Origin: an uncultured Bacilli bacterium
Lineage (GTDB): Bacteria; Bacillota_I; Bacilli_A; RF39; UBA660
Length of the DNA stretch: 35,099 bases
Direction of reading: 5' to 3'
Assembly: GCA_944358675.1 (NCBI GenBank)
Contig: CALVRN010000011.1
Coordinates: 1 to 35,099, forward strand
Part shown: positions 3,148-19,768 of the stretch, piece by piece
Position numbering within the stretch: the first letter of the stretch is position 1
How the letters are laid out: each line of letters opens with the position of its first letter
Position numbers and translations under genes: made by a program
Notes under the pieces: model-generated
What the model was told of the DNA's origin: nothing
The model's database searches: none
The model's input: only the letters and a program-made list of their open reading frames with translations

Positions 3148-4977
3148 ATGATAAAACATACAGATCCATACAAAATTTCTCAAATATTTTCCAATGAAAG
3201 AAGTATTTTATATAATATTCCAAAATATCAAAGAGAATATACATGGGGACAAAAAGAATGGGGATTATTGTTTAATGATGTTATAGAAAATGATTATGGT
3301 TATTTTTTAGGATCTATTATTTGTGTTGATAATAGTACAAGTGCGATGAGTGACGCAATATTAGAAGTAATTGATGGCCAACAAAGGATAACTTCTATTT
3401 CTATATTGTTAATTACATTATATGAAAAGTTATGTGAATACAAAGAACAATTGGATGAAGATCAAATAACAGATTTAAACAATGTCAAACGAGAATTAGT
3501 AGTAAGAAGAGATGGAAAAAATATTCCAAGATTGACACCACAAGTGCAAAATCATAATAGAGATGATTATTTTAGTCTACTATGTGAAAAAAGATTGTTA
3601 TTTGATTATGAAAAGAAAAACAATGCAGGCAATAGAAGAATATATAAAGCATATAATTATTTTTCAAATTTAATAGATAAATATATTGAAGAAATAAAAA
3701 GTGAATATTCAGATAAAAATAACATTGAAATTTTATTTGAACTAGTTAATAGATTTAATTCAGCAGTATTGGTATCAATTGAAGTGGAAACACATAAAGA
3801 TGCTTATATGTTATTTGAATCATTAAATAATAGAGGAGTTCCTTTGTCAGCAATCGATTTAATAAAGAATTTATTAATTAGTGTTTCAGATGCGGATGGA
3901 AATTCAGAAGAATGTTATTCAAAATGGAAGAAAATATTAGCATATTTAAGCGATGATTATAGTGTACAGGAAAGATTTTTTAGACAGTTTTATAATGCCT
4001 ATAGAGATGAATTAAATGTGCCTTATAAAACAGAAGGAAAAGTAAAATATGCTTTAGGACCTCTAGCAACTAAAACAACGTTATTAGACATCTATGAAAA
4101 ACTAATTAAGACTGATTACAGAAAATTTTTAAATAGAATTGAAAAAGAAGCTAAAAATTATTCCATTTTAATCAATAATGCTAATGAAGATGATAGTATT
4201 GAAAAACTAGAAAAGCCATTATTTAATTTAGATAAAATTCAAGGTGCCCCATCATATATTTTACTTTTATATTTATTATCAAATAAAGATAGATTGAATT
4301 TAGATAATGATATTATTGCGAATATTATCAATTATTTAACAAAGTTTTTTGTTAGAAGAAATATTACAGATTATCCAAACACAAGAAACTTAACAAAAAT
4401 ATTTATGGATTTAGTATCCTTGATTGCAAACAAACAAGGGACAGATATATATAATTTAATTGTTAATAATCTAAAAAACAACTCATCATCTGATGAAATA
4501 TTTGAAGAGAAACTAAGAGGACCAATATATTCAGATAATCCAGATGCTACAAGGTTCTTATTATGTTATTATGAAGATAAATTTAAAACAAATGAAATAT
4601 ATACAAATCTATGGAGTAGAGATAAAAGTAATAAATACATTTGGACAATAGAACATATTTTTCCTGAAGGAGAAAATATCCCAACTGACTGGATTGATAT
4701 GATAGCAAATGGCGATAGAGATTTAGCAATTGAATATTTAAATAGATATACTCATACTTTAGGAAATTTAACTGTAACAGGGTATAATCAAAACTTAAGT
4801 AATTTGTCTTTTGAAAAGAAAAAAAATAGAGTTAATAAGGATGGAAATTATATTGGCTATAGAAATGGATTGAAGCTAAATGAAGATGTAGTTAACAAAG
4901 ATGCTTGGCATATTGATGATATAAAAATGAGAACAAATAAGTTAGTAGATTTTTTTATGAAAGAGTTTGAATTATAA
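3148..4977 (+). CDS. GmrSD-like DUF262/DUF1524 nuclease
   Basis: A 609-residue protein with the two-domain layout of type IV, modification-dependent restriction enzymes (GmrSD, BrxU relatives). The N-terminal DUF262 domain (ParB/Srx-like, NTP-binding) shows IPKYQREYTW (24-33) and DGQQRIT (76-82). The C-terminal DUF1524 HNH-type nuclease domain shows IEHIFPEG (E502-H503) and HTLGNLTVTGYNQNLSN near 538. Length is that of fused single-chain GmrSD proteins. In the family, nucleotide binding controls cleavage of modified (for example glucosylated) phage DNA in the cytoplasm. The start has GAGGTG seven bases upstream and its own promoter. It leads an operon with a membrane protein and a helical protein, which is not the usual solitary setting of GmrSD. 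Both key motifs look intact. Confidence 0.85.
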   Translation: MIKHTDPYKISQIFSNERSILYNIPKYQREYTWGQKEWGLLFNDVIENDYGYFLGSIICVDNSTSAMSDAILEVIDGQQRITSISILLITLYEKLCEYKEQLDEDQITDLNNVKRELVVRRDGKNIPRLTPQVQNHNRDDYFSLLCEKRLLFDYEKKNNAGNRRIYKAYNYFSNLIDKYIEEIKSEYSDKNNIEILFELVNRFNSAVLVSIEVETHKDAYMLFESLNNRGVPLSAIDLIKNLLISVSDADGNSEECYSKWKKILAYLSDDYSVQERFFRQFYNAYRDELNVPYKTEGKVKYALGPLATKTTLLDIYEKLIKTDYRKFLNRIEKEAKNYSILINNANEDDSIEKLEKPLFNLDKIQGAPSYILLLYLLSNKDRLNLDNDIIANIINYLTKFFVRRNITDYPNTRNLTKIFMDLVSLIANKQGTDIYNLIVNNLKNNSSSDEIFEEKLRGPIYSDNPDATRFLLCYYEDKFKTNEIYTNLWSRDKSNKYIWTIEHIFPEGENIPTDWIDMIANGDRDLAIEYLNRYTHTLGNLTVTGYNQNLSNLSFEKKKNRVNKDGNYIGYRNGLKLNEDVVNKDAWHIDDIKMRTNKLVDFFMKEFEL

Positions 4978-6241: not shown

Positions 6242-6367
6242 TATACTTCACTTTCTCTTAATCAGAGCTAACATACACTACAAGGAATCGATTTTTATCT
6301 AATTATTTTAAAAGATGGTACCCATCGCCCAATTGAAAAAATAACTAGGAGTTAATTCTAGTTTTTT
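6242..6367 (+). repeat. RNA-like repeat element, copy A, ending in a terminator
   Basis: About 126 bases that match 14747-14878 imperfectly, with an uninterrupted 24-base identical core (6280-6303) beginning ACAAGGAATCGATTTTTATC. Both copies can fold the same way: TTATCT pairs with AGATGG here (two G-U pairs) and with AGATAA in copy B. The 3' hairpin AACTAGGA-GTTAA-TTCTAGTT (G-U at one step) matches AACTAGGA-TAATATT-TCCTAGTT in copy B. It ends in six Ts and so also terminates the 3148-6185 operon. No clear own promoter is seen. It may be a small RNA gene copy or duplicated island-end DNA. Confidence 0.7.
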
Positions 6368-6473: not shown

Positions 6474-7307
6474 ATGAGTGAAAAAGATTTAGATTGTAGT
6501 ATGAATCCTTATCAAGAAGAACAAAAACCTAAAGGTTATATAAAACAGTTACAATGGGATATGGCAATAGGGTTACAACAAGTAGATAATTTAAAACCAT
6601 CTAAATACTTAGAACAAATAAAAGAAAAAAACATCTTAGGTGAATTAACACTAAAAGAGGTAGAACAAAGGTTAAGAGAATATTACACCACAAAAGAAAA
6701 GAATATTAATCATAATGAATTAGAATGTGATTTTGTATCAATGAGAATTGTTGAGTTACTAGATCAAGGTAATTTTGAATTATCAGTAGATTATCTAAAA
6801 TATATTCATAAATATTTATTCCAAGATGTATATGAATTTGCAGGAGAGTTTAGAAAAACTGATTTTTCTAAACATGAAAAAATATTAAATAATGATTCAG
6901 TTGCTTATGGAGACTCTAAAACCCTAACTGAATCCTTAGAATACGATATTAGTCTAGAAAAAGAGAAAGACTACAAAAATATGAATATTGTAGAAGTGAT
7001 TAAAAATATTACTGATTTTACATCTAGTATATGGCAAGTACACCCCTTTAGAGAAGGCAACACTAGAACAACAGCAGTATTCATAGAGAAATATTTAATC
7101 AGTTTAGGATACGATGTAGATAATTCATTATTTAAAGATAAATCAGTATATTTTAGAAATGCATTAGCTAGAAGTAATTATTTTAATAATTATTTAAATA
7201 TAAAAGAAGACAATACTTATCTAATTAAATTTTATGAAAACTTATTATTAGGTAAAAATAATAATTTGCACTCTGAAGATTTAATTGTAAAAGAATTATT
7301 TACTTAA
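6474..7307 (+). CDS. Fic family protein (probable AMPylase)
   Basis: A 277-residue protein with the complete Fic core motif HPFREGNTRT (190-199); the His is the catalytic base, the acidic residue and GN bind metal and phosphates, and the Arg binds ATP. In the Fic family this motif transfers AMP or another phosphate-containing group to a target protein hydroxyl. The upstream Fic-type helix block (DVYEFAGEFRKTDF) is also present. The N-terminal 90 residues are helical and resemble the extension found in stand-alone bacterial Fic proteins. I cannot find a clear inhibitory [S/T]xxxE[G/N] helix within it, and no antitoxin gene adjoins it. It has its own promoter and lies between repeat copy A and the adenine methylase. 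The target is unknown; toxin, defence or housekeeping roles are all possible. Confidence 0.85.
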   Translation: MSEKDLDCSMNPYQEEQKPKGYIKQLQWDMAIGLQQVDNLKPSKYLEQIKEKNILGELTLKEVEQRLREYYTTKEKNINHNELECDFVSMRIVELLDQGNFELSVDYLKYIHKYLFQDVYEFAGEFRKTDFSKHEKILNNDSVAYGDSKTLTESLEYDISLEKEKDYKNMNIVEVIKNITDFTSSIWQVHPFREGNTRTTAVFIEKYLISLGYDVDNSLFKDKSVYFRNALARSNYFNNYLNIKEDNTYLIKFYENLLLGKNNNLHSEDLIVKELFT

Positions 7308-7370: not shown

Positions 7371-8261
7371 ATGATAGTTGGTAAGGTCTTAAATTCTCCT
7401 ATTAGGTGGGCTGGTTCAAAGAAAAAAGTATTAGTTGAAATGTTAAATGCTTTTAAACCTAATAGAGAAAACTATATAGAATGCTTTCTTGGCTCTGGCG
7501 TTGTGCTTATAAATGTACTAAAAAAAAATAATACATTAAATTATAAAAACTTTTATGTTAATGATATTAATCCACATATAATAAATTTTTATAAGCTTCT
7601 TCAAAATAATCCACATCATATTATAAAACAAATAGGAGAGTTAGTAGAAGTATATAATAATTATGATACGCCTAAAAAAGAAGAGTACTATTATGAGTTA
7701 AGAATGCAATTTAATGAAGAAAAAGATTTAGATAATAAGTCAATATTGTTCTATTTCTTAATGAAAACGGGATTTAATGGTGTCTATAGAGAAAATAAAG
7801 CGGGTAAGTTTAATGTTCCTTTTGGGCGAAAGGAAAAAATAGTATTAAATGCTGATTATTTGATGGAACTATCAAAATTAATTCAACCTGTAAATTTTTA
7901 TAATTTAGATTATAAAACCTTTTTAAATAAAATGAAAGAAGATGGAAAAATAGACAATAGTTTCATGTATTTTGATCCACCTTATTTACCAGATGATTCA
8001 TTAGTAAGTCAAAAACAAGAACTATATACAAAAGATATATTTGATCACAAATTATTTGTGAGAACAATTACTGAATTAAAAGGGAAATACATAATGATAT
8101 CGATGTCAGATTCAAAACAAGCAGATGAAATATATGGCAAATTTATAAAAAATAACATGAAGGAAATCTTGCGTACAATCAATCCTATAAAACTATTTTC
8201 ATCGACTGAGATAGCTTTTACAAATTATAAAATTGAGTTAAACTCAAACAATGAAGAGTAG
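7371..8261 (+). CDS. DNA adenine methyltransferase, Dam/D12 class
   Basis: A 296-residue N6-adenine methylase of the D12 class (Dam, DpnM, EcoRV-type). Motifs run in the alpha order: PIRWAGSKKKV near 10-20, the SAM-binding ECFLGSG near 39-45, FNGVYRENKAGKFNVPFG (typical of D12 enzymes) near 138-155, and the catalytic DPPY at 202-205. It transfers a methyl group from SAM to adenine in a short DNA site; GATC is the commonest site in the class, but the site here is not determined. A strong ribosome site (AGGAGGTC) precedes the ATG, with TATAAT at 7341-7346 above it. No adenine-type endonuclease adjoins, so it is an orphan methylase, or it protects against or serves one of the island systems. Confidence 0.9.
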   Translation: MIVGKVLNSPIRWAGSKKKVLVEMLNAFKPNRENYIECFLGSGVVLINVLKKNNTLNYKNFYVNDINPHIINFYKLLQNNPHHIIKQIGELVEVYNNYDTPKKEEYYYELRMQFNEEKDLDNKSILFYFLMKTGFNGVYRENKAGKFNVPFGRKEKIVLNADYLMELSKLIQPVNFYNLDYKTFLNKMKEDGKIDNSFMYFDPPYLPDDSLVSQKQELYTKDIFDHKLFVRTITELKGKYIMISMSDSKQADEIYGKFIKNNMKEILRTINPIKLFSSTEIAFTNYKIELNSNNEE

Positions 8262-8276: not shown

Positions 8277-8308
8277 GTATAATATTTTGATAATATTTGA
8301 AAAATATT

Positions 8309-8337
8309 TTGACAATATTATATTTTTGTGATATTCT
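8309..8337 (+). promoter_or_regulatory. Promoter of the five-gene operon
   Basis: A consensus-like sigma-A promoter: TTGACA (8309-8314), 17 bases, TATTCT (8332-8337). The first gene starts 22 bases later. No other good promoter is seen until the operon's end at 14625. Confidence 0.8.
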
Positions 8338-8359: not shown

Positions 8360-8584
8360 ATGAATAATATCAAGCAAGAAAATTTTAAAAGAATTGCTAA
8401 CAATAGAGTAAACAAAATAGTAGATTTAATTTCAAAACTACATAATTTATCTAATACTTCATTTTATGAATATACTGATGATCAAATAAACGAAATATTT
8501 AATCTGATTCAAAATGAATTAGATAAACAAAAACAATTATTTGATAAGGATAAGAAAAAAGGACAAAAGAGGGTGGAATTATGA
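8360..8584 (+). CDS. Small helical protein, first gene of the five-gene operon
   Basis: A 74-residue, highly charged, all-helical protein. The core RIANNRVNKIVDLISKLHNL, followed by SFYEYTDDQINEIF, resembles small proteins often seen at the head of accessory operons in Firmicutes; I know no function. The ATG at 8360 follows GGAGGT at 8348-8353. The upstream ATG at 8297 lies before the promoter and can be excluded. The stop overlaps the next start (ATGA), so translation is coupled. Likely a structural or DNA-binding partner of the next protein, but this is inference from position only. Confidence 0.7.
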   Translation: MNNIKQENFKRIANNRVNKIVDLISKLHNLSNTSFYEYTDDQINEIFNLIQNELDKQKQLFDKDKKKGQKRVEL

Positions 8585-11088
8585 TAAACGAATTTAATCA
8601 AATATTCTATCAAAACAGATTAATTGTAAATGGATGTGAATTATATAAATATACAAAACAATACTTTGATTTTATAATATCCAAATTTTTATATGACAAT
8701 GGTGCCATGTCTTATCAAAGAATTTTTAATTATATAGTTAATGTATATGGGTCAGATACAATTAAGTTCTCCCAGTTTAAAAAATATATAGATAATTATT
8801 TAGGTGAAAAATATAAAAGTAAATTCAGTTTATCAAAAAATAAGAAAGAAAATATAATAATTTCCCTATCATTAATTGAAATAGCAGAATCAGAGAATGT
8901 AAGCTCTGTTAATAAAGAAGAATGTATCTCATATATTTTATTTATAAATAAACTGAAAGACTATTTAAATTTAAATATAAAAGAAAAAAATATTAAAATT
9001 GATTTTGCACAATCTGTTTTATACAATCTATTATGTGAATTTGATAATTATTATAATTTTTTAAAAAATAATATACCGAGAATCAATAATGTCTATAACA
9101 AGATGGCATTAAATGATATTTTTAAATTCAATGATACAACAGTTAATATTCTTTTTCAAAACCAAATAATTACTTTAGATGATTTAACGAATTGCTCGGA
9201 ATATTTTATATTACTAATTTTTTCTTTACAAATTCCAAATTTAATAAACATTATAAATGAATGTACAAAACCAACTAAAGAGGTTATCAATAATGCATTT
9301 ATAAAAATAAATTCAAAATCACTTGATATTCTTGTAAAGAGAAATGGATATATTTCTAATAAAAAACTTGCTTTAGAGGAAATTGGAACAGAATATGGTT
9401 TAACAAGAGAAAGAATAAGACAAATTGAAGCAAAAACATTACAAAAAATAAGAAAAAATGCAATTAAAATTGAGCATATTTTAAAAGCAATATTCCATAA
9501 TGAGACTAATAACCAAACCAAATATATTACAAAGTCACAAATAATTAAAAAATATGATTCTGATATAGCTAACAAGATTCTTTTATTATACGAATATGGC
9601 AATTTACCAATAATGTATTGTTCAAAATATAATGTTATTTATGACAGTACAATTAACAATATAGATGAAATGATTAATGATATTATAAAAGATATCGGTA
9701 TTGTTGCTGATTATTATGAAACAGCAGATGCTGATGACTTTTTGCTAAAAATTTTAGAAAATCACTATAAAAAAATCAGTAATAATTTATATATAAAGAA
9801 AGGTTATAACACTAGAGATTTATATTTAGATATTGTTGAAAAGTATTTTCAAAATGGTTATAGAGTTGGTGAAGATGAAGATTACAATAAATTAGTCGAA
9901 ATAGCAAAAGATAAATATAAAATTGATGAGGAAATACCATCAAGACATTCGATAGAAGCGATGATTGGTAGGAGTAACTTTATTCAAATAAATAGAGGTA
10001 CATATTTGTCAGAAAAATATTGCGTTGAATTACCAGAAGAATTAGTGGATAAGATTTTAAACTATATATCTGAAAATAATTTTGTGTATTATAGAAGTAT
10101 ATACGAAAAGTTTAATAGAGAATTATTAAAACTTGGTGTTGACAATCACTATTATTTAAAAGGGTGTATTGATAAAAGATTAACAGATGATATGATTTCT
10201 AAAAGAGATTATATTGTTAATGGAAGTAAAGATATTTCACCTGTTAATGAACTAGTAAATTTAATGAAATCATTTGATTATGAATTCACATTAAATGACT
10301 TAAAATTAAAATTTCCAGGAGTAAAGGATTATACGCTTTATAGTATTTTATATAATGAAATAGATAATGGCTTAGTTTTTATTTCTTCATATGAATTTGT
10401 GTATTTATCTAAATTAAATATAGATGATAAAAGAAAAACAGAGTTAAAAGAATTTGTAGATAACCAATTTCGGTTATTAAATTCTCATTTGCTATCATCA
10501 AAAAAAATATATGCTAGATTATTATTAACAAATAAGGAATTATATAAAAAATTGAATCTTAAAAATGGACATTTCCAATTGTTTTCTATGATGAAAGTAA
10601 TGTATCCAGAATATTATTATCATAGACCTCTTATAAGTACTGAGGATACATCTGTTAATACTAATTATACTGTTATTAGAAGTTATATTGAAAAATATGA
10701 AACGTTTAATATAAAAACAATTCAAGATTATCAAAGAAAAATGAATATAACTGGTATATATAATTATTTGCAATTTATGGAAGATATGAGTGATGATTAT
10801 GTTCAAATTGATATTAGTACAATGTTAAAAAAAGATAAGCTTGATATTTGTTCGGTTGAATTAGAAAATATTAAAAAATCTGTTGATTTAATTTTAAATA
10901 ATTTTGGAGCTATAAATACAGAAAATTTTAAAGGATATTCTCTACTACCTAAAATTAAATATGGCTGGAACAAATATTTATTAATAGGAATATTGAGAAC
11001 ATTTTATTCTGATGATTATGAAATAATTAATACAGGAAATAAATATTCAAATACTGATTTTGAAGTAAGGAGGTTAAATCATGTTTGA
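8581..11088 (+). CDS. Large protein with sigma-70 region 4-like HTH and winged-helix-like repeats
   Basis: An 835-residue protein. Residues about 263-293 (LALEEIGTEYGLTRERIRQI and on) form a near-perfect sigma-70 region 4 helix-turn-helix. Residues about 175-215 (MALNDIFKFNDTTVNILFQN, then ITLDDLTNCSEYF) resemble the helix-hairpin-helix of the RNA polymerase alpha C-terminal domain. The remaining 500 residues look like a series of winged-helix modules, each ending in a strand pattern such as INRGTYLSEKY or ISSYEFVYLSKL. No sigma region 2 is present, so it is not a true sigma factor. It is probably a DNA-binding or nucleic-acid-sensing component. It overlaps the small gene before it by 4 bases and the GHKL ATPase gene by 8. 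Its function is unknown; the domain reading comes from motif recognition only. Confidence 0.75.
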   Translation: MINEFNQIFYQNRLIVNGCELYKYTKQYFDFIISKFLYDNGAMSYQRIFNYIVNVYGSDTIKFSQFKKYIDNYLGEKYKSKFSLSKNKKENIIISLSLIEIAESENVSSVNKEECISYILFINKLKDYLNLNIKEKNIKIDFAQSVLYNLLCEFDNYYNFLKNNIPRINNVYNKMALNDIFKFNDTTVNILFQNQIITLDDLTNCSEYFILLIFSLQIPNLINIINECTKPTKEVINNAFIKINSKSLDILVKRNGYISNKKLALEEIGTEYGLTRERIRQIEAKTLQKIRKNAIKIEHILKAIFHNETNNQTKYITKSQIIKKYDSDIANKILLLYEYGNLPIMYCSKYNVIYDSTINNIDEMINDIIKDIGIVADYYETADADDFLLKILENHYKKISNNLYIKKGYNTRDLYLDIVEKYFQNGYRVGEDEDYNKLVEIAKDKYKIDEEIPSRHSIEAMIGRSNFIQINRGTYLSEKYCVELPEELVDKILNYISENNFVYYRSIYEKFNRELLKLGVDNHYYLKGCIDKRLTDDMISKRDYIVNGSKDISPVNELVNLMKSFDYEFTLNDLKLKFPGVKDYTLYSILYNEIDNGLVFISSYEFVYLSKLNIDDKRKTELKEFVDNQFRLLNSHLLSSKKIYARLLLTNKELYKKLNLKNGHFQLFSMMKVMYPEYYYHRPLISTEDTSVNTNYTVIRSYIEKYETFNIKTIQDYQRKMNITGIYNYLQFMEDMSDDYVQIDISTMLKKDKLDICSVELENIKKSVDLILNNFGAINTENFKGYSLLPKIKYGWNKYLLIGILRTFYSDDYEIINTGNKYSNTDFEVRRLNHV

Positions 11089-12982
11089 TAAAGAAAAAAT
11101 GTGGAGATTTCCAGGAAATAATTATCTTCAAGAGCAAGGAATAGATACACCGGATATGGAAACGTTTGCTCAAGATCCAATAGCATCACTTGCTAGAGAG
11201 TCATGTCAAAATTCAATTGATGCGAGAATAGAAGGAGAAACTGCAAGAATTGAATTTAAAACTTTTGATATAATGAGAAATGAAATTCCAGGGATAGACA
11301 GGATAGAAAAGGAAATTAATTCATGTCTTGATTATAGAAAAAACAATTTAAAGTTATATCAAACACTTTCTAATATGAAGAACAATTTAAATAATAGTAT
11401 TATACATTGTATTAGAGTAAGTGACTTTAATACTGTTGGATTGAAAGGCATAAATGATTTAAATGATAGTCCATTCTATCTTCTAACACGAGGTACTGGA
11501 ATAAGTGATAAAAATGGTTCGAAAGGTGGCTCAAAAGGTATAGGTAAATTTGCTTCTTTTGTTGCTAGTTCATTTAATACAGTTTTTTATTCAACATTAA
11601 ATATGGACGGTGAAAAAGGATATATAGGTATATGTAAATTGTGTTCGACAACAATGGAAGGTACTGATGAAAAAACACAGGGAACTGGTTATTTTGGACT
11701 TGATAATAAACATATGCCGATACTTGAAGATTTTAATTTAGATAAGTCTTATAAAAGAGAAACAACAGGTACGGACATTTATATATTGGGGTTTAGGAAA
11801 AATAATAATTGGAAAAAAGAACTCATAACAAAAATATTAGATAGTTTTATGTGTGCCATATATTATGAAGATCTTGAGATTGTAGTTGATGATTTAACAG
11901 TTAATAAGAATAATTTAGGCGAATTAATTGAAAATGATGATTATATTTTAAAAAGAAGTTACAATAATATTAAATCACAATATATATTATTAACTGATCC
12001 AAATGTATTTAAAAATACTTTAGAGATAGAAGATTATGGTAAAGTGGATATTTTGCTAAAGGGCTTTAGTAAAGATGAATCTGATTTGGCAACTAATGAA
12101 TGTGTAATGATAAGATATCCATATATGAAAATAAAAACTTTACCAAGAATATCAAACGTTCCATGTTCAGCAATGTGTATTATAGGTGATAACACTTTAA
12201 ATTCATTATTAAGAGATATTGAAAATCCACAACATACAAATTGGGAAATTAATAGAATTGATGATGATGATTTGAAAAGTGAGTTGCGTCATATATTAAA
12301 GACTTTAAATGATTCAATTATTAATTATGTATATGATAAACTATCAACAAGTAGAATAAAAGAAACTGATGTAGAAGGTGCTAGTGAGTACTTACCAGGT
12401 ATAGATGATAGTAATATTGGAACTGGAGAAGCAGATGTCATAATAGAAAAACCCAAAATTGTTAAAAAAGTAAAAAATAAGGTTAAAGATAAAATTGGAA
12501 TTAAACCAGATGATGAAGGCAATTCTCTTTTACCGGGATTAGGTGATCATAAAGAAGATGGTGAAGGCTCACCAATTCCAAGTGGTAGTAATAATTCATC
12601 AGGTGGTGATACACATGATTCTAATAATGAAACTGGGTATACAAATGAAGATTCTGATAAAGAAATAATGACACTTGCACAATTGAGTGGTATGCAATAC
12701 AGATTGTTTGTTTCTGATAAAAAATCTGGAAAATTGATAATTTCTTTTGAATCTTTATATACTGAAAATAATTGTGAATTAGAGTTAAAATATTTGGATG
12801 ATTCTAATACTAGATATAACATTAATATAAGTGGTTGTAGAGTAAATGGTATACCGTTAGATATTGTGGATGGCAAATTAAAAAATATAAAAATAGAGGA
12901 AGGTAAGAAGTATAGAATAGAACTTGATACTGATTTAAGAGAATTGTATACTTTTGAGGTGAAGATGTATGCGAATAGGTAA
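11081..12982 (+). CDS. GHKL (HSP90-like) ATPase
   Basis: A 633-residue protein with an N-terminal GHKL ATP-binding domain. The N box is ARESCQNSIDA (E40, N44, D47), and a glycine lid GGSKGIGKFA lies near 149-158. The usual DxGxG metal/adenine box is not obvious and may be RGTGIS. The start WRFPGNNY with DTPDMETFAQDPIASLARE is typical of a widespread class of ATP-binding proteins of phage-defence and R-M clusters. A low-complexity Gly/Ser/Asp linker (about residues 470-530) precedes a C-terminal beta-rich domain. ATP-driven clamp closing, as in MutL, MORC or HSP90, is the family's mode of action. AAGGAGG precedes the start; it overlaps the gene before by 8 bases and the next by 14. The partner is probably the sigma4-like protein or the two downstream proteins. 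Confidence 0.8.
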   Translation: MFDKEKMWRFPGNNYLQEQGIDTPDMETFAQDPIASLARESCQNSIDARIEGETARIEFKTFDIMRNEIPGIDRIEKEINSCLDYRKNNLKLYQTLSNMKNNLNNSIIHCIRVSDFNTVGLKGINDLNDSPFYLLTRGTGISDKNGSKGGSKGIGKFASFVASSFNTVFYSTLNMDGEKGYIGICKLCSTTMEGTDEKTQGTGYFGLDNKHMPILEDFNLDKSYKRETTGTDIYILGFRKNNNWKKELITKILDSFMCAIYYEDLEIVVDDLTVNKNNLGELIENDDYILKRSYNNIKSQYILLTDPNVFKNTLEIEDYGKVDILLKGFSKDESDLATNECVMIRYPYMKIKTLPRISNVPCSAMCIIGDNTLNSLLRDIENPQHTNWEINRIDDDDLKSELRHILKTLNDSIINYVYDKLSTSRIKETDVEGASEYLPGIDDSNIGTGEADVIIEKPKIVKKVKNKVKDKIGIKPDDEGNSLLPGLGDHKEDGEGSPIPSGSNNSSGGDTHDSNNETGYTNEDSDKEIMTLAQLSGMQYRLFVSDKKSGKLIISFESLYTENNCELELKYLDDSNTRYNINISGCRVNGIPLDIVDGKLKNIKIEEGKKYRIELDTDLRELYTFEVKMYANR

Positions 12983-13883
12983 AAAATTATTTCCATATCC
13001 TACAATTAATAATTCAAAAAATGCTAGTTGCTTTCAAAATTCAAATTTCGCATTAATATATGATGATGTAGAAGATGATAATAACTTAATATTAAAAAAT
13101 GCTCATATAGAATTAGATAATCAAACACTTATTGAATTATTTGAACAAGGAAAAATTGATGCTACTGTAATAGTTGAATGTTCTTCAACAATTTTCAGGA
13201 AAAGTTTTAAAATTTCAAGAATTCCAAAAGACATAATTGTACCAGTAATGAATTTAAGAGATCAGGTAGTTATTTCATGTTTTGTTTATGCTACAGAAGA
13301 TTTTTCTTATATAAGTGATGATTTTTTAGAAGATTATCAAGGCTATACTTTTAATATTGAAAAATATGATATTCTAGCAATAGATGATGGTTTTACAACA
13401 AAAATTGAATATGATGAAAGTAAAGATAAAAAGGTTTCATCAATATTTTCGATAATAAAGGATGAATTTATTAGTAATAATGTGATGAAAATTGAACCTA
13501 CTAGCAAAAAAATAGTCATTCATTTACCGGAGGAACAATTTGGATGTTATGAAAATATGAAAAACAATGATAATTATCAAGAAATATTTTTTTCAATTTT
13601 AACAATACCAGCATTAATAGCTTGTTTACAAAGCATTCAAGATCAAATGTTATATGGCGAAGTTACTTTGGATAATATACATATCGATTATAGTTGGTTT
13701 TGCTCAATTGAATATGCTTATAAAAATCAATTTAACGAAGATTTAGATGAAAATAAATTTAAAAAGTTAAATGTAGTAGAATTATCTCAGCAATTAATGA
13801 ATTATGCTAGTGTAACAGCTATAAGTGATTTGTTTAAACAGGAATTTAGTAAATTGGTAAGAGGAGATAATGATGATGAATAA
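12969..13883 (+). CDS. Conserved hypothetical protein of the GHKL operon
   Basis: A 304-residue soluble protein without signal peptide or membrane helices. The N-terminal half is beta-rich (GKKLFPYPTINNSKNASCF, IVECSSTIFRKSFKISRIP), the middle has EKYDILAIDDGFTTKIEYD, and the C-terminal half is helical (FFSILTIPALIACLQSIQDQ). No catalytic motif is visible. I believe such proteins recur beside GHKL ATPases of this kind, but I cannot name the family. GAGGTGAAG lies about eight bases before the ATG; the gene overlaps its neighbours by 14 bases on each side, so it is an obligate member of the operon. Possibly a structural or adaptor subunit. Confidence 0.7.
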   Translation: MRIGKKLFPYPTINNSKNASCFQNSNFALIYDDVEDDNNLILKNAHIELDNQTLIELFEQGKIDATVIVECSSTIFRKSFKISRIPKDIIVPVMNLRDQVVISCFVYATEDFSYISDDFLEDYQGYTFNIEKYDILAIDDGFTTKIEYDESKDKKVSSIFSIIKDEFISNNVMKIEPTSKKIVIHLPEEQFGCYENMKNNDNYQEIFFSILTIPALIACLQSIQDQMLYGEVTLDNIHIDYSWFCSIEYAYKNQFNEDLDENKFKKLNVVELSQQLMNYASVTAISDLFKQEFSKLVRGDNDDE

Positions 13884-14625
13884 TAAAATTAATATTGAAT
13901 TTATGACAGATGAAGCGCTAGCAACATTGAAATCTAATAGCCTAACTGCTAATAATTATCTAAAAACAGAAAAAAACAATTCTGAATGGATAAAGAAGAT
14001 ATATAATGGAAAACTATATGAACCAATGAAACAAAAAATAAATGATTTTGAATTAAAAGTTAGTTTAAATGGTAATTATGATGAAGTTGACTTTGATAAT
14101 TCTATAATTTTATATGAATCATTAAAAGAACTACCTTTATATATACTTACTGATGAGAGATTCTGGGCTTGGGTTAATTTTGAGAAAGGATACAAAGCAG
14201 CAATTCAAGCTATGCCTGTAAAGTCAGATTCTACATTTTTAAACCACTGGGTATTTGGTCAAAGCAATAGAAGAAGTATATTTTTTGGAGTATTATCAAG
14301 ATGTTATTTTAGAGTTGCACTTACAGTAGATGAAAGATTAGATGACAAATATGAATTGACAAGATTTGTTATTGAAAATCCAGAAAGATTTAGAAATCTT
14401 ACTTGGCGTTCAAGTTCTAGTGAAAAGCATATTGTATTAGGTATAATAAAAGCGGAAAAAGATATATACGACAAGTATGGAAATAAGGTGAAAAATAGTA
14501 TTTACAAAGAAATAGCTAAAGATATATCTTTATACGCAAGCGTAAGATTAATTGATGTAGTATCTGAGGAAGATATTTATAAATTTGTATATGATAAAAT
14601 GGAAAAATATATTCAAAAGTTATAA
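13870..14625 (+). CDS. DUF6339-like protein
   Basis: A protein of about 250 residues. The central block (LPLYILTDERFWAWVNFEKG, then HWVFG, RRSIFFGVLSRCYFRVALTV, DDKYELTRFVI) matches my memory of the DUF6339 family, hypothetical proteins found in defence loci with GHKL ATPases and cytosine methylases. The sequence is rich in Trp, Arg and Tyr, as in nucleic-acid binding proteins, but no nuclease motif is plain. Three ATGs stand in a row (13870, 13873, 13876) after GAGGAGA, so the exact start is uncertain. Last gene of the operon; a hairpin terminator follows at 14659. The DUF assignment is moderately sure and the function unknown. Confidence 0.65.
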   Translation: MMMNNKINIEFMTDEALATLKSNSLTANNYLKTEKNNSEWIKKIYNGKLYEPMKQKINDFELKVSLNGNYDEVDFDNSIILYESLKELPLYILTDERFWAWVNFEKGYKAAIQAMPVKSDSTFLNHWVFGQSNRRSIFFGVLSRCYFRVALTVDERLDDKYELTRFVIENPERFRNLTWRSSSSEKHIVLGIIKAEKDIYDKYGNKVKNSIYKEIAKDISLYASVRLIDVVSEEDIYKFVYDKMEKYIQKL

Positions 14626-14746: not shown

Positions 14747-14878
14747 TATACTTGCAATCTCCCTCAACTAGAGCTAACATACAACACAAGGAATCGATTT
14801 TTATCTAATATTTTTAAAAGATAATGCTCATCGCCCCAGATTGGAGAATAACTAGGATAATATTTCCTAGTTTTTTTT
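14747..14878 (+). repeat. RNA-like repeat element, copy B, ending in a terminator
   Basis: The second copy of the element at 6242-6367. Conserved points are GAGCTAACATACA, the 24-base identical core (14787-14810) with GAATCGATTTTTATC, AAAAGAT, CATCGCCC and the terminal AACTAGGA hairpin followed by eight Ts. The terminator stem is perfect (AACTAGGA with TCCTAGTT), and the inner stem is TTATCT with AGATAA. Together with an upstream promoter-like sequence this copy looks like a complete small RNA gene. No known RNA family is recognised. Confidence 0.65.
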
Positions 14879-15152: not shown

Positions 15153-15272
15153 CGAATGTCAATATCAACATATATAAAAAATTTAGGACTTTGTAAAAAA
15201 AATGCAGGACATAAAAACTTTTACTATGATTTTTTAGAGTTTAATGTTATACTTATTATTGTAGGTGATAAT

Positions 15273-15479
15273 ATGATACAAATTAATTATGATGGTTTAT
15301 GGAAAATACTAATTGATCATAATATGAAAAAAAAAGACTTGCACAATGAATTAAATATTGGTACTGGTACGATTGCCAAAATGAGTAAAGGCGAGCCAGT
15401 ATCAATGGAAGTTTTGGCTAAAATATGTTATGCATTTAAATGTAATATTGAAGATATAGTGAGGTTTGTATATGAGTAA
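15273..15479 (+). CDS. Xre-type HTH regulator, probable R-M controller
   Basis: A 68-residue Cro/C1-type helix-turn-helix protein: LWKILIDHNMKKKDLHNELN, IGTGTIAKMSKGEPVSME, then LAKICYAFKCNIEDIVRF. Its size is that of a single HTH domain, as in C (controller) proteins and YozG-like repressors. The ATG at 15273 follows AGGTGAT. An upstream in-frame ATG at 15156 lies in non-coding DNA under the opposite promoter. Its stop overlaps the first methylase start by 8 bases, so it is translated with the R-M genes and probably sets the timing of methylase and nuclease expression. TATTAT (15254-15259) and ATAATA (15268-15273) form an inverted repeat across its own ribosome site, a candidate operator. 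Confidence 0.8.
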   Translation: MIQINYDGLWKILIDHNMKKKDLHNELNIGTGTIAKMSKGEPVSMEVLAKICYAFKCNIEDIVRFVYE

Positions 15480-16557
15480 AAAGAAGAAAATGAGGGCATT
15501 ATCACTTTTTTCGAGTGCTGGGATTGCCGAATTTGGGTTTAAAAACACAATGGTTGATGTTATTCTTGCAAATGAATTACTACCAGTTAGAATGAATGTT
15601 CATAAATTTTGGCATCCTGAAATAAAAACAATATGTGGAGATATAACAGATGAATCGATAAAAAAAGAAATAATAGTAAAAAGTAAAAAAGAAAAAATTG
15701 ACTTTGTTTTTGCTACTCCACCATGCCAAGGAATTAGTTTAATTGGGAAAAATAAAACAAATGACCAAATGCTTGCCGATAAAAGAAATTTCTTGATTTT
15801 TCATGCATTTGATATAATTGATGAACTAGATCCAAAGTGTGTTTTAATAGAAAATGTGGCTAGATTTTTTAAAATAAAATTTATTATTAACAATAAGCTA
15901 ACATCGATTGAAGAAATTATAAAACAAAAATATGGAAAAAAATATAATTTAAGTTTTAAAATTTTTGATGCGGAAAATTATGGCGTACCTCAACATAGAG
16001 AACGAGCTATAATAAGAATGTGGAAAAAAGACTTCATGTGGAATGATCCACCAATAGAAAAGACAATTACCTTAAAAGAGGCAATTGGGGATTTACCATC
16101 ATTAGAATCTGGAGAAAAATCAAACATTAAAAATCATAATGCTCGTTTACATATAAAGAGGCATATAGAATGCATGAAACACACACCAACAGGACATTCC
16201 GCTTTTGAAAATGAATTTTATTATCCAAAAGATGAAAAGACAGGAAGAAAATTAAAAGGATATGCAGCAACTTATAAAAGAATGAGTTGGGATAAACCGG
16301 CTCCTACAATTACTATGAGAAATGATTGTATATCTTCCCAAAGTAATGTTCATCCAGGTAGGTTGCTAGAAGATGGAACATACTCTGATGCCAGAGTATT
16401 AACAATGAGAGAATTACTTATTTTGAGCAGCCTAGATCCTGATTTAGATTTACCTAATTTTGCATCGGATACACAGATTAGACATATGATTGGCGAGGCA
16501 GTACCTCCAAAATTAATCAATGCAATATTGAAAGGGTTAAAAATAATAAATGATTAA
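15472..16557 (+). CDS. C5-cytosine DNA methyltransferase 1
   Basis: A 361-residue C5-cytosine methylase. Motif I is LSLFSSAGIAE (10-20), motif IV ATPPCQGIS with the catalytic Cys85, motif VI IENV (E127), motif VIII YGVPQHRERAI, motif IX KPAPTIT and motif X IGEAVPPKL. The enzyme adds a methyl group from SAM to C5 of cytosine in a specific site. The target recognition region is short (about 80 residues) and contains GDLPSLESG and HPGRLLEDGT, both shared with the second methylase downstream, so the two are paralogues. ATG at 15472 follows GAGG at 15461-15464. It overlaps both neighbours by exactly 8 bases. Protects host DNA from the endonuclease at 17598. Confidence 0.93.
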   Translation: MSKKKKMRALSLFSSAGIAEFGFKNTMVDVILANELLPVRMNVHKFWHPEIKTICGDITDESIKKEIIVKSKKEKIDFVFATPPCQGISLIGKNKTNDQMLADKRNFLIFHAFDIIDELDPKCVLIENVARFFKIKFIINNKLTSIEEIIKQKYGKKYNLSFKIFDAENYGVPQHRERAIIRMWKKDFMWNDPPIEKTITLKEAIGDLPSLESGEKSNIKNHNARLHIKRHIECMKHTPTGHSAFENEFYYPKDEKTGRKLKGYAATYKRMSWDKPAPTITMRNDCISSQSNVHPGRLLEDGTYSDARVLTMRELLILSSLDPDLDLPNFASDTQIRHMIGEAVPPKLINAILKGLKIIND

Positions 16558-17605
16558 AGGAGTATCTCTATTTTCTGGTGCAGGTATTGGTGAATTTTAC
16601 TTAAAAAAAGCAGGAATTGATATAAAGGTTGCAAATGAATTATTACCAAAAAGAGCTCAATTATATTCATTTTTTTATCCGAAATGTCAAATGATATGTG
16701 GAGATATAACAAATAAAGAAGTATTTGACAGAGTAAATAAGGCAATCAAAAAAAATAATTGCAAATTTTTGATTGCTACTCCACCATGTCAAGGAATGAG
16801 TACACTAGGCAAAAAAAAATATATTTCTGATAAAAGAAATTATTTATTTAATTATGTTATTGACATAATTAAAGATAATGATTTTAATTATGTTTTTTTT
16901 GAAAATGTACCAAAATTCGTTAAAATTAAATTTCCATATAATAATGATAATTTAATAATTCCAGACATTTTAAAACAAGAATTTGGACAGTATTATAATA
17001 TTGAGGTATCTATTTTAAATGCTATGGATTATGGAGTTCCTCAAAGTAGGCCACGTTCATTTATAAAAATGTATAAAAAAGGACTAACGTGGAAAAATCC
17101 ATATCCTCAAAAAAAAATCACATTAAGAGAGTGTATAGGTGATTTACCATCATTAGAATCTGGGCAAGATAGCGGTATTAAATGGCATTATGCCAAACAT
17201 CATAATGATAGAGAAATACTTGCCGCCAAACATACTTTAGAAGGACAATCAGCCATATATAATGATATTTTTTATCCTAAAAAAGCAAATGGAGAAAGAA
17301 TAAAAGGGTTTCATAATACTTATAAAAGAATGAAATGGGATGAACCAGCTCCAGCAAGAGCGATGAATAATGGAAATATGGGAGGAACAAACAATATTCA
17401 TCCAGGTAGGTTGTTAAATGATGGTACTGTTTCTGATGCTAGAGTATTAACCTTAAGAGAATTATTTATTGTATCATCGTTACCGGCGGATCTAGATTTG
17501 CCAGATTGGTGTACTGACAATTTAATAAGAACAGTTATTGGAGAAGCAATACCTCCATTATTCAGTTACAATTTTATAAAGGGTATAGGAGGAAACAATG
17601 ATTAA
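16550..17605 (+). CDS. C5-cytosine DNA methyltransferase 2
   Basis: A 351-residue C5-cytosine methylase similar to the one before it. Motif I is VSLFSGAGIGE, motif IV ATPPCQGMS with Cys80, motif VI FENV, motif VIII YGVPQSRPRSF, and motif X IGEAIPPLF. The motif IX region reads APARAMNNGN where its neighbour has APTITMRND, so the target-reading part has diverged. Two C5 methylases beside one nuclease is the arrangement expected for an asymmetric recognition site, with each enzyme modifying one strand (known for HgaI-like type IIS systems). It overlaps the first methylase and the nuclease by the same eight bases, ATGATTAA. Confidence 0.92.
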   Translation: MIKGVSLFSGAGIGEFYLKKAGIDIKVANELLPKRAQLYSFFYPKCQMICGDITNKEVFDRVNKAIKKNNCKFLIATPPCQGMSTLGKKKYISDKRNYLFNYVIDIIKDNDFNYVFFENVPKFVKIKFPYNNDNLIIPDILKQEFGQYYNIEVSILNAMDYGVPQSRPRSFIKMYKKGLTWKNPYPQKKITLRECIGDLPSLESGQDSGIKWHYAKHHNDREILAAKHTLEGQSAIYNDIFYPKKANGERIKGFHNTYKRMKWDEPAPARAMNNGNMGGTNNIHPGRLLNDGTVSDARVLTLRELFIVSSLPADLDLPDWCTDNLIRTVIGEAIPPLFSYNFIKGIGGNND

Positions 17606-19085
17606 TTTAAAGAGAAGTATGAATGATAAATGGATATTTCAAAAAAATACTAATTCCAAAAATTTAATTGAATCATATTTAAATGTAATAAATGAGACAA
17701 AGGACATAGATGATAAAGAAAAAATAATTGATAAGCTAAAAATGATGTCCGCATATCACGGTAGAAGTAAAAAAGGCTCATTAAGTACAATGGGAGTTAG
17801 ATTTAGTCAGATGTGTTTTTATATGTTTGGATATAAAAATGAAAACAACACATTTATTCCAAGCCAGACAACAATTAATTTATTACAAAAAATCAATTCA
17901 AAACAAAAAAATATGCTAGTAAATCTTTTTGCCATACAATTTCCACATCCATATAGTCAAACACCATCGGACATAGAAATCTATGCAGGACGGTTAATTA
18001 TTAAATTATTATGTGATGAAAAGATTGATTGTAAATTATATATTGATGAAATGATATATTTTTTACCATTTATTAAAACAATAGATCAAGAAAAATATGA
18101 AATGCTAGTAAATAGTATTTTAGAATATAGAAAGCTAACCTATGAAGAAAAGTTGATTCTATTTAAAAAAGAAGACAATTGGGAAACATTATTTGCAAAT
18201 TGTGTTCATGAATTTTCATACTTTTTTGCTAGGATTTTTAAATCATTTGGTGTATTAGATATTGTAGGAGACAAAAATCATAATGGTGGAAAGTTATTTA
18301 AATTTAGGCATGGTAATAAAAACAGACATAATACTTTTAGAAATGATGCATATGGCTCTAGAAAAAAATGTTCTGGATATATAAAAATTAAAGATGAATT
18401 AAAAAATGATGCCATATCTTTACTCAATCATTTTAGTCCTTTCTCTAAACCATTAACAAATAAAGATCCAAATGTTTTTTCAAAAAGTGATTGGATACAT
18501 GATTTATATGAAGTAGAAATACTAGAATATCTTAGTATTGTATTTCCTGAATATTCTAAACAAAGAGAAATTATAAATGCAATATCTGAAATGCAATATA
18601 TGTCAAAATATTCATCAAAAGATGGAAAAGATTTTGAAAGATCTTTAAAACCTGTAATAGAATTGTTTAGAGAAAATTTAAATGTAGAAATTATTAGTGG
18701 ACCAGGCGAACCAGATTTGTTATGTGTTTTTGAAGATACTGTTAGAGATTTACCAGATTATAAAATTAATATAGAAGCGAAATCTAGGAATTCTACTAAT
18801 AATATGAATGTTACAAGAATTGAAAGGCATATCTCAAAATATGCATCGAAATATTGCATAATTGTTGCGCCACGTTTTTCAAGAGGAAATGATTTAGATA
18901 TTTCTAATAAAAATATGGTTTCAATTACTGCAGAAGCTTTAGGAAAATATTGTTCAAAAGAATGTTTATCAGCAAATGATGGCAAAGCAGATTTTACAAC
19001 AATTAATGGAATAATAGAACAAAATATGGGTAAAAATATAACAAGAAATGTCGAGAATATAGTTGAACAACGATATGGTTTCTAA
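17598..19085 (+). CDS. Restriction endonuclease, PD-(D/E)XK type, probably type IIS
   Basis: A 495-residue protein. The C-terminal third carries a PD-(D/E)XK nuclease signature: GPGEPDLL (P372-D373) and NIEAKSR (E393, K395), with the expected strand pattern between them. The N-terminal part starts W-IFQKNT and has AYHGRSKKGSLSTMGVRFSQ, and resembles the layout of AlwI-type type IIS enzymes, with specificity in the N-terminus and cleavage at the C-terminus. AGGAGG precedes the ATG, and the start overlaps the second methylase. It cuts unmethylated foreign DNA; the site is unknown. No terminator is clear behind it. The nuclease assignment is good, the AlwI likeness moderate. Confidence 0.78.
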   Translation: MINLKRSMNDKWIFQKNTNSKNLIESYLNVINETKDIDDKEKIIDKLKMMSAYHGRSKKGSLSTMGVRFSQMCFYMFGYKNENNTFIPSQTTINLLQKINSKQKNMLVNLFAIQFPHPYSQTPSDIEIYAGRLIIKLLCDEKIDCKLYIDEMIYFLPFIKTIDQEKYEMLVNSILEYRKLTYEEKLILFKKEDNWETLFANCVHEFSYFFARIFKSFGVLDIVGDKNHNGGKLFKFRHGNKNRHNTFRNDAYGSRKKCSGYIKIKDELKNDAISLLNHFSPFSKPLTNKDPNVFSKSDWIHDLYEVEILEYLSIVFPEYSKQREIINAISEMQYMSKYSSKDGKDFERSLKPVIELFRENLNVEIISGPGEPDLLCVFEDTVRDLPDYKINIEAKSRNSTNNMNVTRIERHISKYASKYCIIVAPRFSRGNDLDISNKNMVSITAEALGKYCSKECLSANDGKADFTTINGIIEQNMGKNITRNVENIVEQRYGF

Positions 19086-19120: not shown

Positions 19121-19630
19121 ATGGAGTATCGTGATTTATATGACAAAGATAGAAATTTAACAGGAAAAACGGTTGCCAAAGGAGAAGAAATTCCAAAGGG
19201 CTATTATATCAAGGTGGTTGTTTGCTTCATGAAAGATAGCGAAGGAAGATTTCTAATGCAAAAAAGATCAGAACTAAAAGATGGTAAATGGGGAACAACA
19301 GGAGGCCATCCTAAATCAGGAGAAGATTCACTTACCGGAATGCATACCGAAATATTAGAAGAACTAGGTTTAGATATCAATAAAGAAGAATTAACCTTAA
19401 TCACCACTGAACAAGATAATAAAATTATTTGTGACATATATTATCTAAAAAAGGACATCGACCTTAATGACATAGTTATGCAAGAAAGTGAAGTAGCTGA
19501 TGTAAAATACTTAACATTAGAAGAAATAGAGGATTTATACGAAAAAGGTGAATTCAAAAAATCTCATTATTACATGTTTCACGACTTTCAAAAGAATTTA
19601 AATCAAAAACAGTTACAAAAACAAAAGTAA
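19121..19630 (+). CDS. Nudix hydrolase
   Basis: A 169-residue Nudix protein. The Nudix box runs from G62 to L84 (GHPKSGE, then TEILEELGL). The canonical Arg of REUXEE is replaced by Thr76, while the metal-binding glutamates E77, E80 and E81 are kept. YdcJ/IPP-isomerase-like features (EYRDLYDKDRNLTGKTV, FLMQKRSELKDGKWGTTGGH) place it among the Nudix enzymes that hydrolyse a nucleoside diphosphate linked to X; the substrate is not deducible. AAAGGAGTGG precedes the ATG. It lies just beyond the island and upstream of the metK leader, and seems chromosomal. Confidence 0.85.
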   Translation: MEYRDLYDKDRNLTGKTVAKGEEIPKGYYIKVVVCFMKDSEGRFLMQKRSELKDGKWGTTGGHPKSGEDSLTGMHTEILEELGLDINKEELTLITTEQDNKIICDIYYLKKDIDLNDIVMQESEVADVKYLTLEEIEDLYEKGEFKKSHYYMFHDFQKNLNQKQLQKQK

Positions 19631-19653: not shown

Positions 19654-19768
19654 AACCTTATAAAGAGTGATGGAGGGACTGGCCCTATGATATCACAGCA
19701 ACCTATTAAGTTAGGTGCTAAAGCCGGACGATAAGGAACTAGAAAACAAGTTCCTCGCTTGTTTTTTT
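19654..19768 (+). promoter_or_regulatory. S-box (SAM-I) riboswitch controlling metK
   Basis: Core S-box elements in order: GAGGGACTGGCCCTATGA, CAGCAACC, GGTGCTAAAGCC and GACGATAAGG. P1 is CCTTAT (19656-19661) with ATAAGG (19731-19736). The terminator is AAACAAG (19744-19750) with CTTGTTT (19758-19764), followed by Ts. The competing antiterminator is AGGAACT with AGTTCCT. When SAM binds, P1 forms, the antiterminator is lost and transcription of metK stops. Confidence 0.95.

Follow-up and report, generated by a model that had tools for sequence, protein, structure and literature searches.

Closest described systems and the locus under study

According to Iyer et al (2008; PMC2292703), paraMORC2 ATPases, which are marked by a strongly conserved ExxxH motif in the S5 domain, are found mainly in cyanobacteria and Gram-positive bacteria and are tied to restriction-modification (R-M) genes. 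The paraMORC3 protein VcSduA, a GHKL-Shedu protein, protects against phage and needs an ATPase residue to do so (PMC12137116), and mzaA of the MZA system encodes a sigma factor (PMC9523054). The PDC candidates listed in PADLOC are unpublished predictions (PMC11811056). Here we analyse a 35,099-nt stretch of DNA from an uncultured Bacilli bacterium (contig CALVRN010000011.1, assembly GCA_944358675.1; the whole stretch is referred to as the window) that contains an operon of five genes, numbered 1 to 5, encoding among others a GHKL ATPase and a protein that joins sigma factor region 4 (sigma4) to a run of predicted winged helices. On balance, we modestly favour a reading of this operon and its upstream neighbours as a mobile, methylation-paired DNA-surveillance system that belongs to the paraMORC/MutL type and can include a sigma4/winged-helix DNA reader; its anti-phage function is a prediction.

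A conserved core with a GHKL ATPase

All five open reading frames of the initial annotation are present in the order and at the coordinates given there (Table 1), with junctions overlapping by 4 (ATGA), 8, 14 and 14 bases as it had stated and a ribosome-binding site of the GGAG/GAGG type ahead of each start. Compared with the related locus L190, protein identity is 80-93% across genes 1-5, and the ratios of nonsynonymous to synonymous substitution rates (about 0.04, 0.16, 0.09, 0.13 and 0.11 for genes 1 to 5) are low, so that all five genes must be regarded as functional and under purifying selection. Genes 3, 4 and 5 match, over nearly their full lengths and in this order, the PADLOC models PDC-M33A (4e-139), PDC-M33B (1e-56) and PDC-M33C (5.8e-38), and gene 3 fits paraMORC2 as described in PMC2292703; the core of the operon can thus no longer be called undescribed.

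M33 loci were sampled from the genomes of Bacilli and from plasmids (38 loci); whenever the contig is not cut short, A, B and C follow in this order, usually with gene 1 ahead. The three genes are found together and in order in Bacilli, on plasmids of Bacillota, Actinomycetota and Deinococcota, and on viral contigs, in which a scan with the single gene 3 query detected no relatives and a scan with an alignment detected five. The conserved core comprises gene 1 and genes 3-5, gene 2 being present in 10 of the 38 loci and the closest relatives adding a D12 methylase and a Fic gene, which moves the natural boundary away from the five genes first proposed. In one locus from a small genome (L045:4694-8428), M33A is split by a single TGA and is open under code 4 (TGA=Trp).

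The assignment of gene 3 to the GHKL ATPases rests on its motif set, because hhalign aligned it with MutL over 14 residues of the N-box alone and no Pfam or NCBIfam model matched it at E<=1. These motifs are near-invariant in 27 homologues, which bears out the earlier claim of an intact ATPase: the N-box E40xxQN44xxD47 (consensus ExxQNSxDA), D115xNTxG120 (DxNTxGL), the glycine box GGSxGIGK (GGSxGIGKxA) and GTD (GTDIYI). Further downstream, an ExxxH motif (ENPxH, 381-385) has E381 and H385 invariant in 25 sequences. By motifs and neighbourhood, gene 3 reads as paraMORC2-like. Its C-terminal 100 codons are far more divergent than the remainder when compared with L190 (about 50% identity at 601-633, about 93% elsewhere), a pattern that may be likened to a variable recognition domain.

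The partners of the ATPase are less readily classified. A PDB sequence search retrieved no relative of gene 3 or gene 4, and the alignments of genes 4 (25 sequences) and 5 show no catalytic-looking cluster of invariant residues. Gene 5 is a DUF6339 protein (Pfam, 3.4e-34), in agreement with its initial description, and its AlphaFold model reaches a predicted local distance difference test score (pLDDT) of 88. Fold searches with DUF6339 gave no convincing solved relative (best Z 5.9 over 85 residues), and its PDB sequence matches are designed helical repeats.

Linkage to DNA methylases and Fic

The order Fic-D12 methylase-gene 1-gene 2-A-B-C is identical in the window, L189 and L190, with Fic homologues at the same place (81 and 47% identity, respectively), and L188, whose contig starts at the methylase, has the same order from there onward. 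The operon is real and recurs in the same order in other genomes, and the claim of a setting among defence genes is substantiated as well. Across the sample, a DNA methylase (D12, C5 or N6) lies at most four genes away in 25 of the 34 informative M33 loci by hand tally. Twenty M33-bearing genomes contain about 15 D12 genes, of which eight are located at the M33 locus, with about 0.1 expected at random, a null that is too lenient given the clustering of defence islands. Other neighbours of M33 include CBASS, GmrSD, Thoeris-TIR and R-M genes, and some loci adjoin Vsr, MutH or HNH genes (Vsr in L031 and L192). In L190, for example, a TIR gene of the Thoeris ThsB type lies upstream of Fic (L190:8481-8978), and in L038 M33C is immediately followed by genes for a CBASS-type cyclase and a membrane protein (L038:10292-12140).

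Mobility of the cassette

The cassette is mobile. M33 is found in none of the 12 listed genomes of the same genus and in 13 of the 385 genomes of the order, and a genome of the same genus shares the right flank from position 19611 at 94% identity but lacks the cassette. Two direct repeats of 82 nt bracket exactly the seven genes from Fic to gene 5. The repeat element (82-90 nt) is rare in other genomes of the family, where it mostly follows immediately on the 3' side of a gene, in the orientation of that gene, and may represent a cassette boundary or recombination site. It has neither an Rfam match nor a notable fold, and an integron-like hairpin was rejected, as single-strand DNA folding was no better than for shuffled sequence. 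Elsewhere, the element was seen linked to Fic (L275), to Abi-like genes (L272, L280) and, in L279, beside a C5 methylase and another GHKL protein.

A phased operator and the small protein of gene 1

The initial annotation placed the operon under one strong promoter. By consensus alone, this promoter is no better than chance (7 found by the scan versus 5.1 expected in DNA of 27% GC); it is the alignment with L188, L189 and L190, in which both hexamers, the TGn and the upstream AATATT repeats are kept, that argues for it. The claimed terminator also has to be qualified: a hairpin with a T tract exists, but sits 225 bases past the last stop codon, just beyond the direct repeat.

The four phased AATATT copies form the only such cluster within the window (0 expected), and the last of them, at 8314, overlaps the -35 element. 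Upstream of 24 M33 operons (150 bp each), AATATT pairs at most 40 bp apart have spacings of 11 (21 pairs), 22 (8), 33 (1) and other (3) base pairs. Pairs spaced by 11 bp were found in 13 of the 24 loci, compared to a simulated mean of 0.07 pairs and a maximum of 3 in 500 runs; related loci with near-identical operators inflate the locus count, while the clustering at a single spacing stays. The array is also present upstream of M33 operons without gene 2 (L041, L042, L043, L191, L195). It is therefore unlikely to be an operator of gene 2, and its binder is probably a core product, for which gene 1 would be the natural candidate.

Members of the gene 1 family lie ahead of M33A in another 11 loci from the first set and in 11 of 12 family-level loci. 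Relatives also precede other GHKL-motif proteins in Alphaproteobacteria (L222, L223, L224 and, less clearly, L221), so that pairing with defence GHKL ATPases may be a general trait of gene 1. These plasmid-encoded proteins (L222:6232-8097, L223:6224-8089, L224:4230-6077, L221:6223-8625) are by profile unrelated to M33A.

Gene 2 is an optional accessory of the core

Gene 2 matches Pfam sigma region 4 (PF04545) at residues 249-292 with 1.5e-9, above the curated cut-off, substantiating the motif proposed for this 835-residue protein. Its AlphaFold model (pLDDT 82, predicted template modelling score 0.53) has a sigma4 helix-turn-helix (HTH) at about 231-298, followed by H-H-H-E-E units onward to the C-terminus, which in the model may be counted as about eight winged helices. 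The model superimposes on Thermus sigmaA region 4 with a VIA-align Z of 10.3 (73 residues, 2.3 A), and the -35-reading residues TRERxRQ (T275, R276, E277, R278, R280, Q281) are kept in all four operon-linked homologues first aligned. Weak Foldseek matches include chains of UFL1, SelB and TFIIIC tauB; the likeness of the repeats to UFL1 and the C-terminal part of SelB, both tandem winged-helix proteins, is one of fold only. Among the proteins compared here, none was found that combines sigma4 with about eight winged-helix units. A sigma-70 factor was considered and rejected, as Pfam finds region 4 alone, without regions 2-3, and the rest of the model is winged-helix-like. The second motif proposed for gene 2, resembling the alpha C-terminal domain of RNA polymerase, gave no significant match in gene 2 itself, but RNA_pol_A_CTD is clearly present in the L193 and L194 homologues (2.3e-11 and 2.8e-23), which occupy the operon position of gene 2; for the family as a whole, the initial proposal is thereby supported.

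The ten loci with gene 2 (the window, L038, L044, L046, L047, L188, L189, L190, L193 and L194) have it in a constant slot, either between gene 1 and A or directly before A. Its presence requires at least four changes on the ATPase tree, and it must therefore have been gained or lost repeatedly; gene 2 is an optional accessory of the M33 core. It also diverges faster (45% identity to L189, compared with 81% for the ATPase). Relatives exist apart from M33, standing alone in L164, L165 and L083, and the gene 2 tree does not cleanly separate M33-linked from M33-free relatives. A profile scan of genome contigs with the gene 2 alignment was dominated by housekeeping sigma factors, L083 being the sole useful locus.

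Some relatives have neighbours of their own: a helicase and a DEDDh exonuclease in L163, and the modification-based systems Ssp/BrxP in L166 and Pbe/Dnd in L167. As a side reading, the sigma4/winged-helix family may be common to several modification-based systems (L163, L166, L167). In L045, a relative that lacks the sigma4 domain lies upstream of gene 1.

Features and flanks of the cassette

Outside the cassette, the left flank contains a GmrSD-type restriction protein (DUF262 plus an HNH-like C-terminal domain; 3148-4977), within the stretch that ends at the left direct repeat. To the right follow a Cro-type controller of the R-M system (15156-15479) and the system itself, which comprises two C5 methylases and a type II restriction enzyme (15466-19085; PADLOC REase_II, 4.6e-44). 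The latter three genes were rejected as members of the unit because the repeats do not enclose them and because L189 lacks them downstream. A SAM-I riboswitch (19655-19737) upstream of an S-adenosylmethionine synthetase gene falls into the chromosomal flank shared from 19611.

Table 1. Features of the cassette in window coordinates
Feature	Position	Strand	Description and evidence
Direct repeat, left copy	6249..6330	+	82 nt; 83% identical to right copy
Fic protein	6474..7307	+	PDC-S72-like, HPFREGNTR active-site motif; Pfam Fic 1.8e-12; PADLOC PDC-S72 1e-80
D12-class adenine-N6 DNA methyltransferase	7371..8261	+	Dam-like; Pfam PF02086 3.6e-38; same place in L188, L189, L190
Operator-like array	8281..8319	+	AATATT x4, exact 11-bp spacing; copies at 8281, 8292, 8303, 8314
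Promoter	8309..8337	+	TTGACA-17-TATTCT, extended -10 (TGn); conserved versus L188, L189, L190
Gene 1	8360..8584	+	74 aa, helical small protein; conserved partner of GHKL ATPases
Gene 2	8581..11088	+	835 aa; sigma70 region-4 HTH, then about 8 predicted tandem winged-helix units; putative accessory DNA reader (Pfam, AlphaFold, Foldseek/VIA-align)
Gene 3	11081..12982	+	633 aa; GHKL ATPase, PDC-M33A, paraMORC2-like (PADLOC, motifs)
Gene 4	12969..13883	+	304 aa; PDC-M33B (PADLOC; alignment of 25)
Gene 5	13870..14625	+	251 aa; PDC-M33C / DUF6339, mostly helical (Pfam, PADLOC, AlphaFold)
Direct repeat, right copy	14755..14836	+	82 nt; no third good copy in genome
Intrinsic terminator-like hairpin with T tract	14850..14872	+	sole good hairpin with T tract

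Proposed mechanism and alternative explanations

MutL, MORC and the GHKL-Shedu protein presumably act by closing as clamps on DNA. Starting from the observed gene content, motifs, synteny, methylase linkage, operator and mobility, we propose that the D12 adenine methylase, judging by its family and linkage, would mark host DNA, and that the operon would be held in check at the helically phased AATATT operator overlapping the -35 element, probably by gene 1. The GHKL ATPase would dimerise on ATP and close as a DNA clamp, with the co-conserved genes 4 and 5 as putative obligate structural partners or adaptors. Gene 2, with its -35-reading sigma4 and about eight predicted winged-helix modules, could add DNA contact and decide where or when the clamp engages. 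Unmarked invading DNA would then be blocked, or passed to a nuclease encoded outside the cassette, and Fic may serve as a back-up toxin. We favour this surveillance reading because of the co-occurrence of A-B-C, the methylase linkage, the Fic-D12 synteny, the intact GHKL motifs together with ExxxH, the sigma4 residues, the gene 2 relatives at modification systems and the role of GHKL-Shedu in defence.

Several observations weigh against it. Among genes 1-5, none was recognised as encoding a nuclease or an effector of another kind, and the majority of M33 loci are without gene 2. The nine informative loci without a nearby methylase comprise a group of four from one genus, L038 and the divergent L048-L051, and the linkage could in part be a product of defence-island clustering alone. 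Methylase and ATPase identities are uncoupled (80 versus 56% in L188, 61 versus 92% in L190), from which we conclude that the methylase is exchangeable and not a fixed specificity partner; matched specificity of gene 2 and methylase was likewise dropped as a main claim, since the identities of these two do not co-vary across L188-L190. Lastly, PDC candidates can fail, as PDC-M63AB and PDC-S04 were inactive in one host (PMC12409345).

Some of these points would suit an abortive unit, in which a GHKL/sigma4 sensor, once triggered, would have the infected cell killed or stalled by Fic or by some activity of gene 4 or 5 that escaped recognition, the methylase being a separate neighbour. Besides the missing nuclease and the uncoupled methylase exchange, it is consistent with the conserved position of Fic at the front in L189 and L190, with another Fic near L040, and with DUF6339 being without solved relative and hence possibly an enzyme. 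We nevertheless regard it as unlikely, given that most M33 loci are without Fic, that genes 4 and 5 have no catalytic-looking invariant cluster and that the strong linkage extends to three classes of methylase. That gene 2 is instead a transcriptional regulator of the cassette, acting at -35-like sites or the AATATT array without a role in recognising invading DNA, appears quite unlikely. A sigma4 domain normally reads promoters, the -35-reading residues are conserved and the promoter of the operon itself has a perfect TTGACA, but the array is equally present where gene 2 is missing, 835 residues with about eight winged-helix units are large for an autoregulator, and gene 2 is translationally coupled to the ATPase.

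A further possible role for gene 2 is that of a promoter-mimic sensor, whose sigma4 and winged helices would read -35-like elements, engage RNA polymerase or bait phage proteins directed against sigma4, thereby licensing the GHKL clamp on transcribed phage DNA. We consider this improbable; if true, immunity would recognise the transcription state of invading DNA and not sequence or modification alone. Very unlikely, finally, is an operon for mobile-element maintenance or methylation-directed repair that has reached defence islands by hitch-hiking. GHKL proteins do include MutL, the Vsr, MutH or HNH genes beside some loci would fit, and paraMORC variants in contexts without R-M were suggested to be related to repair (PMC2292703). 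The patchy distribution in genus and order, the plasmid and viral copies, and neighbours such as CBASS, GmrSD, Thoeris-TIR and R-M genes argue for defence instead.

With the present analysis, PDC-M33 is no longer a bare database candidate but a defined unit whose boundaries, methylase partner, phased operator and accessory gene 2 can be named. Should the ATPase work with no nuclease of its own, it would allow a direct test of whether invading DNA is silenced or compacted by prokaryotic paraMORC clamps, an activity presumed to be ancestral for the MORC proteins of eukaryotes.

Comparison with known systems

PDC-M33 (PADLOC-DB 2.0.0) is the closest listed relative, since genes 3-5 match A, B and C in order, but PADLOC has no M33 model for gene 1, gene 2 or the methylase/Fic part. 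With paraMORC2, the locus shares the intact GHKL motifs, an ExxxH after the GHKL core, the Gram-positive distribution and neighbouring methylase and Vsr genes, whereas M33 as a rule lacks the linkage to superfamily II helicases. In the accessible part of Iyer et al (2008; PMC2292703), partners B and C, the small protein and the sigma4/winged-helix protein were not found. VcSduA is likewise a GHKL ATPase module in phage defence, but has its own PD-(D/E)xK nuclease (DUF4263), for which gene 3 has no Pfam match at E<=1.

MZA (mzaABCDE), reportedly described by Gao and colleagues in 2020, resembles the operon, as it is a defence operon in which a sigma-region-4 protein is encoded alongside one of the MutL/GHKL type. 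Gene 2 as MzaA was rejected, as the similarity is confined to the sigma4 domain (611-658 of 683) and reaches 50 bits in NCBIfam versus a cut-off of 800, and the MzaB-E models of PADLOC gave no match at E<=1 for genes 1 and 3-5. The earlier statement that no named system has this combination therefore stands insofar as no tested, named one was found, but the pairing of sigma4 with a GHKL/MutL protein has its precedent in MZA. No mention of DUF6339 or PDC-M33 was found in the literature searched.

Taken together, paraMORC-type GHKL systems beside methylases are known already, and the M33 core is a listed candidate. Although an earlier description in Gao 2020 or in the HARE-HTH paper of 2012 is possible, the gene 2 architecture, the pairing with gene 1 and the phased operator appear to be new within the sources searched.

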